The notes under the pieces are model-generated. The model ran no database searches, had not been told where the DNA came from, and saw nothing but the letters and a program-made list of their open reading frames with translations. The position numbers and the translations under genes were made by a program. Below are positions 5,982 through 21,216 of a stretch of 22,474 nucleotides of DNA, in pieces. Source of the stretch: a virus. Numbering within the stretch: position 1 is the first letter of the stretch; each line of letters opens with the position of its first letter. The stretch is taken from positions 1 through 22,474 of the IMG/VR virus record IMGVR_UViG_3300046006_001830; one strand, given 5' to 3'.

Positions 5982-6971
5982 TTAGCCCATCAGCAGATCA
6001 CCACTCGCAATGAGGGCATCTTTCTGAGAGCAGATGGCAAATGCCGGGCAGTACTTGCAAGCCATGACTTGGCCAGGTACTTCTTTGATGGCACCGGTGT
6101 TGCCATTGGTGGTCATGAAGATCACCGCTTCCTGGCGGGTGTCGAAGTTCTTGGTACTACGCGACTTGGTGGTGTCACCGCTCTTGTAGTACTTGAACTG
6201 CGGCTCACTGCGCCATAACTCTTCGTCATCGCACAGAGGTAGCAGTTCTTCTTCGGTGGCCCAATGTTGGTCAATCAGATTGACCTTGGTTCGGATGAAC
6301 TGTTCAGTCTCGCCTAATGACATCAATGGGAAGGACTGCTTATGGAATCGCCGCGGTGGGTAGCTTGGATCAGTCTTCTGCATTCCACCCTTCCAGTCGG
6401 TGAAGATGTAATGAATGTCCATCTCATCCTGGTGGATCATTGTTGGATTAAGCCAACGATAGATACTTCCCTGCTGGGTGTATTTGGTAGCGTTGACCTG
6501 GTTCTTATAAGTCCACACGGATGTGGTCTTGAAATCCTGTACACGTCCCTCACCCACGAAGTCAAACTTGCCTGTGATGATCCATTTACCCATCTGGCGC
6601 TTGAGACGCTGCTCAAGGTAGATTGGGATGGTGTCCTCAGTCAGTTCTTCAGGTGTGGGGTTGATGCGTACACGTTCAATGACCCGAGCTGGGTACCCCA
6701 GTGCTGCCATTGCTGGCTTATGGTTGGTGATCCATGCCTTCTCGATGCCATCATGGATGGCTGAGCCCATGCGGTTGTTCATCATGTCTGCCAAGTTGGG
6801 CATGGCCACGCCAGGTGGTATGCGAGTTGGTAAGACGATCTGGCGCAGAGGTTTCAGCAGTGTGGTTGCACTGATGGTGTTAGGAGTGTGGTCGTGGTCA
6901 TAGTAGTCCGAGGACAAGAATACGGCCAGGGCCAGGGGTACATCCCCCACGTTAGCGTAGGTTTGGGTCAT
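5982..6971 (-). CDS. PD-(D/E)XK (RecB/Cas4-like) exonuclease
   Basis: A 329-residue nuclease of the PD-(D/E)XK superfamily. GSAIHDG at 69-75 supplies the early His (H73), ITGKFDF at 132-138 the metal Asp (D137), VQDFKTT at 144-150 the D-x-K pair (D146, K148), and QQGSIYRW at 166-173 the QxxxY motif. C305, C308 and C314 (ACKYCPAFAIC) form the three-Cys C-terminal part of an AddB/Cas4-type iron-sulfur site. The usual fourth Cys near the N terminus is absent; C247 is the only other nearby candidate. The family resects DNA ends 5' to 3' or in both polarities and often pairs with phage annealases, here the Sak4-like gene. The ribosome binding site AAGGAA precedes ATG 6971. Confidence 0.8.
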   Translation of the reverse strand: MTQTYANVGDVPLALAVFLSSDYYDHDHTPNTISATTLLKPLRQIVLPTRIPPGVAMPNLADMMNNRMGSAIHDGIEKAWITNHKPAMAALGYPARVIERVRINPTPEELTEDTIPIYLEQRLKRQMGKWIITGKFDFVGEGRVQDFKTTSVWTYKNQVNATKYTQQGSIYRWLNPTMIHQDEMDIHYIFTDWKGGMQKTDPSYPPRRFHKQSFPLMSLGETEQFIRTKVNLIDQHWATEEELLPLCDDEELWRSEPQFKYYKSGDTTKSRSTKNFDTRQEAVIFMTTNGNTGAIKEVPGQVMACKYCPAFAICSQKDALIASGDLLMG

Positions 6972-6994
6972 TGAGTTCCTTTTGGTTTGTATAG

Positions 6995-7012
6995 AAGCGC
7001 CAGGAGGCGCCT
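6995..7012 (-). terminator. Intergenic hairpin after the DUF5664 gene
   Basis: On the minus strand AGGCGCC-TCCT-GGCGCTT forms a 7-bp stem (one G-U pair) with a four-base loop. It lies seven bases after the stop of the DUF5664 gene and just before the RecB-like start. There is no T-run (CTATAC follows), so full termination is doubtful. It matches the other gene-end hairpins of this block in size and loop. Confidence 0.45.
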
Positions 7013-7018
7013 ACGTGA

Positions 7019-7495
7019 TCAATGACCCATACGGTCTTCGCGTTCACGGATGTAGAGATCCAGTTTTGCTAAGCAATTCCAGGCTTCGTGGGAGAGGTGC
7101 AATAAGCCACTGTCTGGATCGTTGGTTTCACCTATGTGGCGTCTCGCTGCATGACGTTGCTGAGCATCCTCATAGCGACGGAAGCCATCGGGTACCGCAA
7201 TCCAGCCGTTGTCGGTGTACTTGGCTGCACCAAAGGTTCCTATCTTGGCTACCTCGGTGATAGCTCGGGCCATGCCACCGGTGATGAGGTGCATACGCAC
7301 CTTGCCATGGTCTGCCTTGGCTCCTGCTTGATGGAGGTCACGCCCTTCTGGGTCATGCTCCATGTCCAGGCACTGTTGCATGGGTTCTTTTATGTAGGTC
7401 ACCTGCGAATCTACTTCGCAGTCAGCACAAAAGTCCTTATCTACGGAATAAGTGTCTCCCGTACAGCCGATTGATTTACAGCTTCTTGATAGCAT
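7019..7495 (-). CDS. DUF5664 / dATP-dGTP diphosphohydrolase-like protein with N-terminal zinc ribbon
   Basis: A 158-residue protein from ATG 7495 (AGGAA ribosome binding site, seven bases upstream). A longer frame to 7606 would run into the ribonucleotide reductase gene, so I reject it. Residues 1-30 hold C6, C11, C23 and C26, a likely zinc ribbon. Residues 58-150 match the DUF5664 (dGTP_diPhyd_N) pattern: GAKADHGKVRMHLI, ITEVAKIGTFGAAKY, a RYEDAQQRHAARRHIGE segment, and DSGLLHLSHEAWNCLAKLDL. The family name comes from a phage purine dNTP pyrophosphohydrolase, but many members have no tested activity. Its place next to the ribonucleotide reductase supports a role in dNTP pools. Confidence 0.75.
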   Translation of the reverse strand: MLSRSCKSIGCTGDTYSVDKDFCADCEVDSQVTYIKEPMQQCLDMEHDPEGRDLHQAGAKADHGKVRMHLITGGMARAITEVAKIGTFGAAKYTDNGWIAVPDGFRRYEDAQQRHAARRHIGETNDPDSGLLHLSHEAWNCLAKLDLYIREREDRMGH

Positions 7496-9702: not shown

Positions 9703-11694
9703 ATGACTACACCTAATAATGTTTGTGGAACTGGGGGGTGGGGAGGCCCATTGGCCGGGGATCCAGACAACAATGTGTATCTGACAGCTACCCCTGCATT
9801 TGGGGGTGTGGATGTCACCTGGACGTATCCAGTGATCAATCCATTTGCCGTAAGCCATACTTTGGTGTACCGCACGCACTCACCTAATTTCACCTCTGCA
9901 ATAGAGCGTCAAATCGTGGCAGGCAATTTCTTCTACGACAGAATAGATGACGGACTCACGTATTACTACTGGATCAAGCTCGTATCGATCAATGGAACGG
10001 TGGGGGAATTGATTGGTCCAGCCTCAGCTACTGCTAGGCCATTGATTGATGACCTCCTTGAGCAGTTGGCCGGTCAGATCGATGCGGATGTGCTGTCGCA
10101 GTCCTTAAAGGGGACTCTGGACAATATCAGCCTGGTCGGCATGGCCTTGGCGAATGAGACCTTGGATCGGCAAACAGGTGAAACATCCTTGGCCCAGGCG
10201 TTAGATGACGTGCAGGCAGGAGTGGCGGAGGCACATACGTTTATTGCGTCAGAGATAGCTTCTCGTGTAGCAGCCAATTCAGCAATTGCAGAGCAGATCA
10301 ACCTGGTTGCAGTTACCTTAGGGGACAGCATAGCTGCTGTAGAAACGAGTTCCTCTGCTTGGGTTGAAACAGTAGATGGCGTCACAACAACACAAGCCAA
10401 GTACTTTGCAAAGGTGACTGCAGATGGTTTGGTAGGTGGTTTTGGTGTCTATAACAACAGCACAACAGTTGAAGCTGGTTTTGATGTTGATACGTTCTGG
10501 GTTGGCAGAACAGGAGCTGATAAGCGTAAACCATTCATCATTATTGACGGGGAAACCTTCATCAATACCGCAATCATCAATAGCCTCACGATTGATAAGC
10601 TACGGACACCCAGTGGTGGTGTATTAATCCAAGATGGGTTAATTCGTGCTGATGCCGTCAATCTGGATTGGGGTGGGATCACCGGGACTGGTAGGCCAGA
10701 AAGCGGCGCTACTCGTAATGTCTATAGAGGAAACTGGGCTGCGGCTACAGTCTATGTGGCCGGTGACGCAGTAATTGCTGGTGGGTATGGTTGGGCCTGT
10801 CAAATGGGACACACCTCCAGCGCCTTGATACAACCACCGGTATTCCCTATAACAGACAACAGTTACTGGATGATCTCCACGATCAAAGGGGATGATGGTA
10901 GTGTCGGTGTTCCAGGCGCAGCAGGTGTTGCTGGGTCACAAGGTATCCAGGGAATCCAAGGTGTGCCAGGTACACAGGGTATTCCCGGGATGGATGGGAC
11001 ATCAACCTACTTCCATATCGCTTATGCAGACAATATCTCAGGCGGTGGTCTGAACCAGTCACCTGTAGGTAAGAGTTACATAGGCACATATGTGGATACC
11101 ACTATTACTGATAGTGCTAATGCGGCAGCCTACACGTGGAAGCTATTCGTTGGTACTGATGGTTTGAATGGTGCCGATGGTGTTTCAGGAACCAGTGGTA
11201 GCAATGGACTCACCAGTTATTTACACGTAGCCTACGCTACCAACAGCACAGGAACTACTGGCTTCAGTACCACTGATCCCACCGGTACAACGTATATTGG
11301 TACATATGTGGACTACACCGTAGCAGACAGTACCTCTCCTGGTGCATACGCTTGGGCTCGCTTCAAAGGTGCAGATGGGGCCATGGACCCGGCTGCCAAA
11401 GTAGTGTTGTCCGGAGGTGGTGGTCTAGCCGCTGGCTCCTTGGCCTGGGATATAGACGGTAATCGTACCAGTGGAGCTGGTACAGCGATGACCAGTAAAG
11501 GCTTCCTGGCACACAACGGGACTGTTCCAACCTTTGTTGTCAACGGGATTACTGGAGATGCCAGTTTCAGCGGGACATTAAATGTTCAATCAGCACCTAC
11601 CGGTGCCCGTCTTGAGATTAAAAATAACGTCATCAAGGTGTATGACGGAATACTCTCAACTCCGCGAGTAATCATTGGAGATCTGACCGCATGA
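9703..11694 (+). CDS. J-like tail tip / receptor-interaction protein with collagen-like repeats
   Basis: I start the gene at ATG 9703 (GAGG nine bases upstream), giving 663 residues; a TTG five codons earlier is less likely. A fibronectin-III-like domain comes first (about 20-115: VYLTATPAFGGVDVTW, YYYWIKLVS). Next is a helical stretch and a DUF1983-like lambda-J domain (about 125-330, with FGVYNNSTTVEAGFDVDTFW). Then come a carbohydrate-binding-like segment (NVYRGNWAAATVYVAGDAV) and a run of about 13 collagen-type G-X-Y triplets (GVPGAAGVAGSQGIQGIQG). Two tandem copies of a roughly 55-residue module (YFHIAY/YLHVAY ... YIGTYVD ... GADG) follow. It is shorter than lambda J, so the hub part is probably in another gene to the left in the circular genome. 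The stop overlaps the next ATG. Confidence 0.85.
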   Translation: MTTPNNVCGTGGWGGPLAGDPDNNVYLTATPAFGGVDVTWTYPVINPFAVSHTLVYRTHSPNFTSAIERQIVAGNFFYDRIDDGLTYYYWIKLVSINGTVGELIGPASATARPLIDDLLEQLAGQIDADVLSQSLKGTLDNISLVGMALANETLDRQTGETSLAQALDDVQAGVAEAHTFIASEIASRVAANSAIAEQINLVAVTLGDSIAAVETSSSAWVETVDGVTTTQAKYFAKVTADGLVGGFGVYNNSTTVEAGFDVDTFWVGRTGADKRKPFIIIDGETFINTAIINSLTIDKLRTPSGGVLIQDGLIRADAVNLDWGGITGTGRPESGATRNVYRGNWAAATVYVAGDAVIAGGYGWACQMGHTSSALIQPPVFPITDNSYWMISTIKGDDGSVGVPGAAGVAGSQGIQGIQGVPGTQGIPGMDGTSTYFHIAYADNISGGGLNQSPVGKSYIGTYVDTTITDSANAAAYTWKLFVGTDGLNGADGVSGTSGSNGLTSYLHVAYATNSTGTTGFSTTDPTGTTYIGTYVDYTVADSTSPGAYAWARFKGADGAMDPAAKVVLSGGGGLAAGSLAWDIDGNRTSGAGTAMTSKGFLAHNGTVPTFVVNGITGDASFSGTLNVQSAPTGARLEIKNNVIKVYDGILSTPRVIIGDLTA

Positions 11695-17978: not shown

Positions 17979-18308
17979 AGACAGAGATGCTGGAGCATTG
18001 GCTCCTCGCATCAACTCTAATGTCGCCGGGTTAACAAGGAACCAGTAGACGGAATAGCAACCGTCTACTGACCACCATGCAAGAAAGAAAGCCAATGGCC
18101 ATCTCTTGTACTGCCTCAGTACCAAAGCATCAAACACATAGGTGGCAGTCATGAAGGTGAAGAGTGCCATGATTAGGCTTATGCCGTAATCCCAGTCTGG
18201 ATAGTCCCAAATGGTTGCACCCACAAGAAGCAGAAACAATCCAATTAGGAAAGAGACACTCTTCCAAAGTGTGTGGTTCAACCCAATGGGTTCAATTCGT
18301 AGGGTCAT
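17895..18308 (-). CDS. Four-TM membrane protein
   Basis: 137 residues with four hydrophobic segments: about 16-34 (SVSFLIGLFLLLVGATIW), 41-60 (YGISLIMALFTFMTATYVF), 71-93 (PLAFFLAWWSVDGCYSVYWF) and 105-123 (PASLSLFLTCGLLWSKVV). It probably sits in the inner membrane. Its ATG overlaps the stop of the H-NS-like gene (ATGA), so the two are co-expressed. The C terminus is encoded opposite the 3' end of the late gene ending at 17978. No family is recognised; superinfection exclusion is a frequent role of phage membrane proteins expressed with lysogenic genes, but nothing here proves it. Confidence 0.7.
   Translation of the reverse strand: MTLRIEPIGLNHTLWKSVSFLIGLFLLLVGATIWDYPDWDYGISLIMALFTFMTATYVFDALVLRQYKRWPLAFFLAWWSVDGCYSVYWFLVNPATLELMRGANAPASLSLFLTCGLLWSKVVKDTLLGLREPIANP
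17986..18012 (+). terminator. Hairpin after late operon, inside convergent overlap
   Basis: GATGC-T-GGAGC-ATTG-GCTCC-TC-GCATC forms a two-part stem (5+5 bp with small bulges) eight bases after the TAG of the last plus-strand gene. It could mark the 3' end of the late transcript. There is no T-run, and on the other strand it is coding sequence, so the call is tentative. Confidence 0.35.
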
Positions 18309-18604
18309 ACTCCAAATTCCTTGTCAATGTCCTTGCCGGCCTTGATAGCAGCCAGGATCCAATCTGGTTTGCGTCCACGACCCCCAACCCAGGTCTCTCC
18401 ATTGGGTCCGCGGTACTTCACCGTAGTCGCTGGACCGACATGCTTGCTCTTTGTCACCAGACCCAGGTCCTGGGTGGTGAGGCCATAGGTCTGCATCTTT
18501 TGCCGGATATCGGCAATTACCTCAGTAATCTCAATTCGCCGCATTTCTTCTGCTTCAGCCAAAAGGCGAGCAGCTTGTTCTCTCAATTCCGTATACGTTG
18601 CCAA
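18305..18604 (-). CDS. H-NS-family nucleoid-associated protein
   Basis: 99 residues from TTG 18604, chosen because a perfect AAGGAGA lies six bases upstream and the protein then begins MATYTELREQAARLLAEAEE, the usual start of this family. A GTG at 18661 would add a non-conserved extension. The N-terminal helices (about 3-40) oligomerise the protein; the C-terminal DNA-binding motif is TWVGGRGRKPDW (71-82) with the GRGR minor-groove loop of BpH3-type H-NS proteins. It would bind AT-rich DNA and silence or modulate host or phage genes. It is coupled to the four-TM protein gene. It suggests a host that uses H-NS-type silencers. Confidence 0.88.
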   Translation of the reverse strand: MATYTELREQAARLLAEAEEMRRIEITEVIADIRQKMQTYGLTTQDLGLVTKSKHVGPATTVKYRGPNGETWVGGRGRKPDWILAAIKAGKDIDKEFGV

Positions 18605-18708
18605 TTCAATTCTCCTTGGGTTGCTTGGAGTTGGGATATTACGGGTATTTCTCCCTCCCACTCCGAAATAAATAGCGACCCAATAAATTGATCGCTGTAG
18701 TTAGGTAC

Positions 18709-18903: not shown

Positions 18904-18920
18904 GACGGCAGCTTTCAGAC

Positions 18921-18945
18921 GTAAAAAAGCCCTGACGAGCAGGGC
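18921..18945 (-). terminator. Intrinsic terminator, minus strand
   Basis: On the minus strand GCCCTG-CTCGT-CAGGGC followed by TTTTTT is a classic rho-independent terminator. It stands about 20 bases before the ATG of the 64-residue ORF, downstream of the attachment-site region. With the next terminator to the right it forms a tandem block that isolates the H-NS-like genes from integrase-side transcription. Confidence 0.85.
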
Positions 18946-18961
18946 AATAATGTGTGGGTTG

Positions 18962-18989
18962 TGGGACAGGTCTGGTGATATGGGACAGG
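18962..18989. repeat. Direct repeat TGGGACAGG beside attP
   Basis: TGGGACAGG occurs at 18962-18970 and again at 18981-18989, 19 bases apart start to start (about two helical turns), with extended similarity on both sides. It lies about 60 bases from the attachment core, a place where integrase arm-type or accessory-protein sites occur. The role is inferred from position. Confidence 0.45.
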
Positions 18990-18993
18990 CCAA

Positions 18994-19028
18994 GAAAAAA
19001 GCACCTAGCGATTACTCGCTAAGTGCTT
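18994..19028 (-). terminator. Strong intrinsic terminator next to attP
   Basis: On the minus strand AAGCACTTAGCGA-GTAA-TCGCTAGGTGCTT forms a 13-bp stem with one G-U pair and a GTAA loop, then TTTTTTC. It lies directly downstream of the tRNA-derived sequence and ends minus-strand transcription from the integrase side. Its location immediately after a tRNA 3' end raises the possibility that it came with the tRNA from a host. Confidence 0.9.
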
Positions 19029-19045
19029 GATCTGATTACCTTTTC

Positions 19046-19092
19046 TGGTGCGGCTGGCAGGAATTGAACCCACGACCCCTTGGTTCGTAGCC
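19046..19092 (-). other. attP: attP core: 3' part of a tRNA-Arg (ACG) gene
   Basis: The minus strand reads GGCTACGAACCAAGG, GGTCGTGGGTTCAATTCC, TGCCAGCCGCACCA. This is the anticodon loop (CTACGAA, anticodon ACG) and the 3' anticodon stem, a variable region, a T-arm with GGTTCAATTCC, and acceptor CAGCCGC-A-CCA. The 5' half is missing: no GCGGCTG partner exists upstream and the sequence diverges right after the anticodon loop. A partial tRNA next to an integrase gene, with phage genes on both sides, is the expected form of attP for a phage that integrates into tRNA-Arg and restores its 3' end. It could also be an att junction of a prophage, but then host genes should flank it. Confidence 0.85.
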
Positions 19093-19229
19093 AGATAGGT
19101 TAAAGGGCTGAAACCCAATATCCATGCGGGTTCCGAGAGGGTGTTGTGTATCATAGAACATTTTAGTCATACGTCGTAAGTCGTTGATTTATAACGATGT
19201 TGGTTTTGCCTGTGATACACATTTCAGTG

Positions 19230-20924: not shown

Positions 20925-21146
20925 TTATATGGCAGCCCAATTGGGCTCAACCACTTTGTTTGTTTTCCTTACGGAATCGGGACCACCACCAAATACTTTG
21001 GTGATGTGTGCTCGCAGAATGGCCACACTGCCATCAGGTCGGACCTTATGCTCAATCCCCATGGCATTGAGTACCTTGACCTGTGATGGTCGTCTGACCT
21101 TGTCAGTCAGGTCCTTTACCTCACCTGGTTCAAGGAATGTCGTCAT
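20925..21146 (-). CDS. DUF4224-family protein, probable integration accessory
   Basis: 73 residues from ATG 21146: MTTFLEPGEVKDLTDKVRRP, SQVKVLNAMGIEHKVRPDG, SVAILRAHITKVFGGG. This is the DUF4224 pattern (F-x-(S/E)-xxE-x-x-x-LT, RPxxQ, GI, R-x-DG). Such genes sit just upstream of phage integrases and are thought to act as excisionase-like or cofactor proteins. Upstream ATGs at 21167 and 21188 are in frame, but I prefer 21146 because the family normally starts at the FL-x-x-x-E motif. It overlaps the 28-residue ORF upstream and ends 10 bases before the integrase. Confidence 0.7.
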   Translation of the reverse strand: MTTFLEPGEVKDLTDKVRRPSQVKVLNAMGIEHKVRPDGSVAILRAHITKVFGGGPDSVRKTNKVVEPNWAAI

Positions 21147-21216
21147 ACGGTAGAAAGTATTCAGCATGTTCGATGATCCAAAGATCATCCATTTGCTCTT
21201 GGCTTAATGGTGGCAT
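21130..21216 (-). CDS. 28-residue acidic mini-protein
   Basis: ATG 21216 with GGAG six bases upstream encodes MPPLSQEQMDDLWIIEHAEY followed by FLPYDDIP and ends at 21130, overlapping the DUF4224 start by 17 bases. It is acidic and probably one helix. It follows the 43-residue gene with TAA and ATG adjacent, so the three small genes form a coupled set ahead of the integrase. Function unknown. Confidence 0.5.
   Translation of the reverse strand: MPPLSQEQMDDLWIIEHAEYFLPYDDIP

Follow-up and report, generated by a model that had tools for sequence, protein, structure and literature searches.

Among the 3919 islands of the Islander database, 2083 are assigned to the anticodon sub-site of a tRNA gene and 3760 carry a 3' tRNA fragment (PMC4383910). 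Excision of one tRNA-associated prophage, KplE1 (CPS-53), uses IHF (PMC2951348). In addition, tRNA-dependent lysogeny has been described for mycobacteriophage Fionnbharth and others (PMC10865867), and a comparable case has been reported for Sinorhizobium prophages (PMC11476347). At the level of the recombinase, Smyshlyaev et al. (PMC8138268) described the CTnDOT integrase, which has no Arg I and uses another, downstream arginine, so that the displacement of Arg I is a phenomenon already known.

Here, we analyzed a locus in IMG/VR record IMGVR_UViG_3300046006_001830. The whole stretch (hereafter, the window) is a virus contig of 22,474 nt whose ends are linear, i.e., a fragment, and no DNA similar to it was found in the phage collection. 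Based on sequence comparisons, we place the probability at about 0.94 that a temperate phage uses the locus as its attP, integrating into the betaproteobacterial tRNA-Arg(ACG) gene by means of a lambda-type tyrosine integrase.

The tRNA-Arg fragment and its surroundings

The 47-nt core (19046-19092, minus strand; GGCTACGAACCAAGGGGTCGTGGGTTCAATTCCTGCCAGCCGCACCA) starts two bases ahead of the anticodon loop and ends with CCA, and since base 19093 matches too, the identity with whole bacterial tRNA-Arg genes extends to 48 nt (Table 1). A genome scan found the 48-mer exactly in 104 of at least 118 bacterial loci among the matches listed. All of the loci listed are from Pseudomonadota (116 are labelled Betaproteobacteria), and the 48-mer is spread over at least four families among them, namely Comamonadaceae, Oxalobacteraceae, Burkholderiaceae, and Alcaligenaceae. 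ARAGORN recovered the complete tRNA-Arg(ACG) gene in each of the 20 host loci checked; in the window, ARAGORN and Rfam detected no complete tRNA, meaning that the 5' half of the gene is absent. An earlier, sequence-only reading of the locus had described precisely such a 5'-truncated tRNA-Arg, extending from the ACG anticodon loop through CCA, and had proposed the bacterial search that now bears it out. Its expectation that the core would identify a host failed, because a 48-mer so widespread cannot name a host below the level of Betaproteobacteria/Burkholderiales.

Table 1. Features of the putative attachment site and the neighboring genes, given as positions in the window
Feature	Position	Strand	Remarks
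attP core	19046..19093	minus	3' part of tRNA-Arg(ACG); 48 nt identical to bacterial genes
CTACGAA, 7-nt anticodon loop, putative strand-exchange (overlap) region	19084..19090	minus	start of identity common to all family attPs
Intrinsic terminator of rebuilt tRNA, AAGCACTTAGCGAGTAATCGCTAGGTGCTT + TTTTTT	18999..19028	minus	fold z = -5.7
Second, weaker terminator	18929..18945	minus	same strand as the first; z = -3.0
P-arm arm-type site (direct), putative, TGTGTATCA	19213..19221	minus	repeat and motif comparison
P-arm arm-type site (inverted), putative, TGTGTATCA	19145..19153	plus	repeat and motif comparison
P'-arm arm-type site 1, putative, CCTGTCCCA	18981..18989	minus	repeat and motif comparison
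P'-arm arm-type site 2, putative, CCTGTCCCA	18962..18970	minus	19 bp from site 1
IHF consensus site, P arm, predicted, AATCAACGACTTA	19177..19189	minus	87 nt from anticodon loop
H'-like site, predicted, GATCAAGCACTTA	19020..19032	minus	one mismatch to IHF consensus WATCAANNNNTTR; overlaps terminator 5' stem
Tyrosine integrase, 366 aa	19815..20915	minus	
Excisionase-like gene	20925..21188	minus	DUF4224; phrog_1266
Small ORF between integrase gene and attP, 102 aa	19230..19538	minus	without family match
Small ORF just past P' arm, 64 aa	18709..18903	minus	

Across the related attPs aligned, CTACGAACCA is invariant, whereas the base preceding CTACGAA can be G, T, or A; this pattern suggests that the overlap region is the 7-nt anticodon loop. 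We infer from this alignment that strand exchange, with its crossover points, takes place within CTACGAA.

The core lies ~0.7 kb past the 3' end of the tyrosine integrase gene, and phage genes are located on both sides of it, as the sequence-only reading had noted. Two small ORFs between the integrase gene and the site share the strand of the integrase and excisionase-like genes, and further genes encode an H-NS-like protein, an endolysin, a tail protein, a primase, a ribonucleotide reductase, and a thymidylate synthase. Neither the neighboring integrase and excisionase-like genes nor the two IHF-consensus sites had figured in that reading. Short ORFs like the one just past the P' arm occupy the same place in a close relative (L135) and at a bacterial junction (L011). 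In addition, a protein with an H-NS C-terminal domain is phage-encoded near the attP (18305-18661).

Directly after CCA, a stem of 13 pairs (19028-18999) is followed by TTTTTT, with a folding energy of -21.5 kcal/mol, in keeping with the very strong terminator read from the letters alone. The 13-pair stem is kept in L135 and L138, and the terminator is present in all related attPs aligned. The earlier reading had proposed testing whether it is also shared with the host locus; it is homologous to the tRNA-Arg flank in both L011 and L054. Since L054 carries a near-identical terminator without arm sites, the window terminator may derive from the host flank.

Other elements were also observed at this type of gene. 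One separate group (L121, L125, L127, L129, L130, L131, and L134, together with L045 and L111) has the same tRNA-Arg 3' end, followed past the fragment by the motif TTAAGTnnTTGATTyATA, and shows no likeness to the P arm of the window. Polynucleobacter-type tRNA-Arg fragments followed by a third flank type (TATATAAAACAATGACTTAC) occur in L036, L105, and L021, and are probably prophage ends.

Putative arm-type and IHF sites, and related attachment sites

The predicted layout of the site is lambda-like, with an arm site, an IHF consensus, an inverted arm site, the core, the terminator with its embedded near-IHF site, and two direct arm sites, in that order. A direct repeat (TGGGACAGG, at 18962-18970 and 18981-18989) and a 12-nt inverted repeat (19145-19156/19210-19221) lie where the sequence-only reading had placed them; that reading treated them as two separate features, whereas they are four copies of one putative arm-site motif. 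A search that required a direct pair on the P' side, plus one direct and one inverted site on the P side, placed the arm sites at constant distances in 10 of 11 attPs, each scoring above the maximum of 60 shuffles, and chose other positions in the eleventh (L142). For the window, the score was only just above that maximum (42 vs 40 for 60 mononucleotide shuffles), and its arm-type sites, although found on both sides as in a lambda-type intasome and assigned to one motif, partly differ, the P and P' copies (TGTATCA vs TGTCCCA) being less alike than in most relatives. In a set of 20 attPs, part of which was gathered through the IHF pattern described below, the P' sites were closer to the P sites of their own phage than to those of other phages (mean 27.2 vs 22.5 of 36), and none of 5000 permutations, in a test that ignores kinship, gave a value as high. 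The spacing of the P' sites was 19 bp in 14 of these 20.

In 12 attPs, the IHF consensus WATCAANNNNTTR sits between both P sites, at a distance of 87-89 nt from the loop. The second IHF-like site, over the terminator stem, departs from the consensus by no more than one base in 9 of 10 related attPs. Such a consensus at a fixed place is consistent with the IHF sites of a lambda-type intasome. We also scanned 2.9 million viral contigs for the IHF core ATCAANNACTT, a gap, and the anticodon loop CTACGAACCA. The scan yielded 20 stretches, 13 of which were read in detail: 11 are sites of the same design (with a tRNA core or the L137 form described below) and two (L282 and L289) look like chance. The remaining stretches include contigs known already from the integrase search. 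A simple pattern of IHF core, fixed gap, and anticodon loop finds such sites in metagenomes.

Two further observations concern this region. An imperfect stem-loop (GGAACCCGCATGGATATTGGGTTTC, 19112-19133) between the P arm and the core is kept in L135 and L136, and is inverted and moved in L137. Another contig (L295; IMGVR_UViG_3300046615_000309) carries two tRNA-Arg fragments with an attP-like site each (10659-10767 and 11437-11545); the two sites lie 0.8 kb apart, differ in their arm sites, and are perhaps tandem elements.

The window integrase is 86% identical to that of L135 and 68-74% identical to those of L138-L142, and in all of these relatives a 3' fragment of tRNA-Arg follows the integrase gene at a distance of roughly 0.6-1.0 kb, on the same strand. 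The whole-looking contigs of L135, L137, L138, L139, and L142 measure 70-74 kb. Integrated relatives occupy the same tRNA gene. The prophage L143/L123/L128 (39 kb contig) has both junctions at intact tRNA-Arg and answers the earlier proposal to look for prophages with att repeats of this sequence. At one end, a whole tRNA-Arg is followed by the terminator, two direct arm sites, and then the integrase gene; at the other, an arm site, an IHF site, an inverted arm site, and the 3' tRNA fragment precede the same terminator, which therefore lies within the shared att sequence there. The upstream flank of this prophage resembles a Polynucleobacter tRNA-Arg flank (L117). A second relative (L190) is integrated in a bacterial genome, adjoining a whole tRNA-Arg. 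One junction is also present at a contig end of a betaproteobacterial MAG (L011), in the order polA-like ORF, whole tRNA-Arg, window-like terminator, two arm sites (TTTGTACCAT / TTTGTACTAT), and a phage-like small ORF that matches the ORFs beside the attPs of L135 (E = 1e-8) and the window (E = 7e-6). The related attPs, the two-junction prophage, and this bacterial locus agree with the attP, the tRNA-Arg(ACG) target, and the arm sites originally predicted.

We infer that the phage of the window integrates as well; an integrated copy of this phage itself was not found. A search of 800 genomes from the order and family to which L011 belongs yielded one integrase relative at E < 1e-120, meaning that few of the genomes sampled carry prophages of this group. 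Relative to the tRNA fragment, the integrase gene is 5' in the window's group and 3' in L143 and L190. In L143, L190, and others, the integrase gene and the tRNA have opposite strand orientations; flipped integration is ruled out as the reason, since the arm layout relative to the tRNA is unchanged and only the side of the integrase gene differs, meaning that the gene moved and not the direction of integration.

It is very improbable that the fragment is a prophage end (attL or attR) and not a phage attP. The contig is linear and incomplete, and a prophage attR likewise carries a 5'-truncated tRNA fragment; however, an attR would lead into host DNA on the P' side, whereas phage genes lie on both sides here, and the P' side has arm sites and a small ORF as in other attPs.

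A sister phage with an integrase 74% identical (L137; IMGVR_UViG_3300019776_000521) has kept the P arm. Its site (6881-7054) has a core of 14 nt that ends at TGGCTACGAACCAA and is followed by two arm sites 19 bp apart, then by a complete tRNA-Arg(ACG) (6978-7054), with phage genes beyond. L137 is a candidate for tRNA-dependent lysogeny, in which the host tRNA would be disrupted by integration and the phage copy could take its place; the window, where the tRNA would be rebuilt, does not fit this class. The sister phage would allow tRNA-dependent lysogeny to be tested outside Actinobacteria.

The integrase and its putative catalytic arginine

The modeled integrase has a lambda-type three-part build, and its best structural match is lambda Int (mean pLDDT 80). 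Measured against the canonical tyrosine recombinase residues (R-K-H-R-H/Y), it keeps Lys244, His323, Arg326, His345, and Tyr355; the Arg I position is occupied by Ala220, and an arginine (Arg242) is found two residues before the catalytic Lys244. We compared 99 distinct sequences, comprising family members and seven more distant phage integrases. Arg I is present in 54 of them, none of which has an arginine at position 242. In the other 45, Ala, Ser, or Pro stands in place of Arg I, and every one of these has an arginine at 242. This mutual exclusion is perfect (99 of 99) and suggests an IntDOT-like alternative Arg I, with an arginine elsewhere only where Arg I is missing. Lys244, Arg326, and His345 are conserved in all 99 sequences, Tyr355 in 98, and His323 in 96.

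The integrase tree requires 8 changes of the arginine switch, 4 of them forced by well-supported branches, but these counts overstate independence because at least one switch came about by exchange of a whole block. Between L148 and L178, integrase DNA identity is only 67-72% in the block that holds both arginine positions and 93-97% in the flanks, indicating that the active-site block was swapped by recombination and that at least some switches are block exchanges. This exchange speaks against counting all of the switches as independent mutations. We consider it likely that in this proteobacterial phage family Arg I has moved to a beta-hairpin two residues before the lysine, and that the switch is exchanged by recombination of the active-site block. 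As judged from the alignment, the either-or switch inside a proteobacterial phage integrase family is what is new here. Since both the normal and the displaced arginine occur in this one protein family, single and double exchanges there can serve to test the switch.

Ala220 in place of Arg I, along with a Pfam match below the cut-off, could be taken to mean that the site or the integrase is a dead, decayed relic. We regard this as highly unlikely, given that the reading frame is intact, all 45 relatives without Arg I have the arginine at 242 and all 99 sequences keep the lysine and the second arginine, the same-type relatives L143 and L190 are integrated, and the CTnDOT integrase is functional with an alternative arginine (PMC8138268). 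Even less credible is another role for the tRNA half, as a tRNA decoy or regulatory RNA: the terminator directly after it would in principle permit a short RNA, but the adjacent integrase gene, the in-register arm and IHF sites, and the integrated relatives account for the locus in full.

Proposed integration scheme and comparison with known systems

For an attP of this type, strand exchange would take place in CTACGAA, the 7-bp anticodon loop. The phage would bring an identical tRNA 3' half and its own terminator, such that the tRNA is rebuilt at the P'-side junction and transcription is halted before the phage genes. The N-terminal domain of the integrase would bind the four arm sites, which form an inverted pair on the P side and a direct pair on the P' side, with IHF bending the DNA at one site per side of the core. 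Through this site, an uncultivated phage group (contigs of ~70 kb) can be assigned a temperate lifestyle and a target gene. The use of the core as a host label is limited, and the integrase and the L137 variant are the parts that may interest specialists.

Like lambda attP and Int, the locus combines two arms with arm-type sites, IHF consensus sequences on both sides of the core, and an integrase of the N-terminal arm-binding type. Unlike lambda, it has a tRNA anticodon-loop target, 2+2 arm sites, one IHF-consensus site per arm, and a putatively relocated Arg I. With KplE1 (CPS-53) at argW of E. coli, it shares a tyrosine integrase, a tRNA-Arg target, and arm-type sites, but the duplicated core there is 16 nt, compared with a shared stretch of 48 nt from the anticodon loop here, and the integrase differs. 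The anticodon-centred islands of Islander likewise have a 3' tRNA fragment and an anticodon-loop crossover (predicted here), with no essential difference. From tRNA-dependent lysogeny as in Fionnbharth, the relative L137 has the short core and the whole tRNA of the same isotype, whereas the window itself is canonical and tRNA-rebuilding. The IntDOT subgroup also lacks Arg I, which is functionally replaced there by an arginine further downstream (in IntDOT, this residue probably lies two before its lysine); its members are integrases of Bacteroidetes ICEs, as opposed to the proteobacterial phage family here. Collectively, the locus is a well-formed attP of a known kind, an ordinary site served by an integrase with an unusually placed, putatively catalytic arginine.
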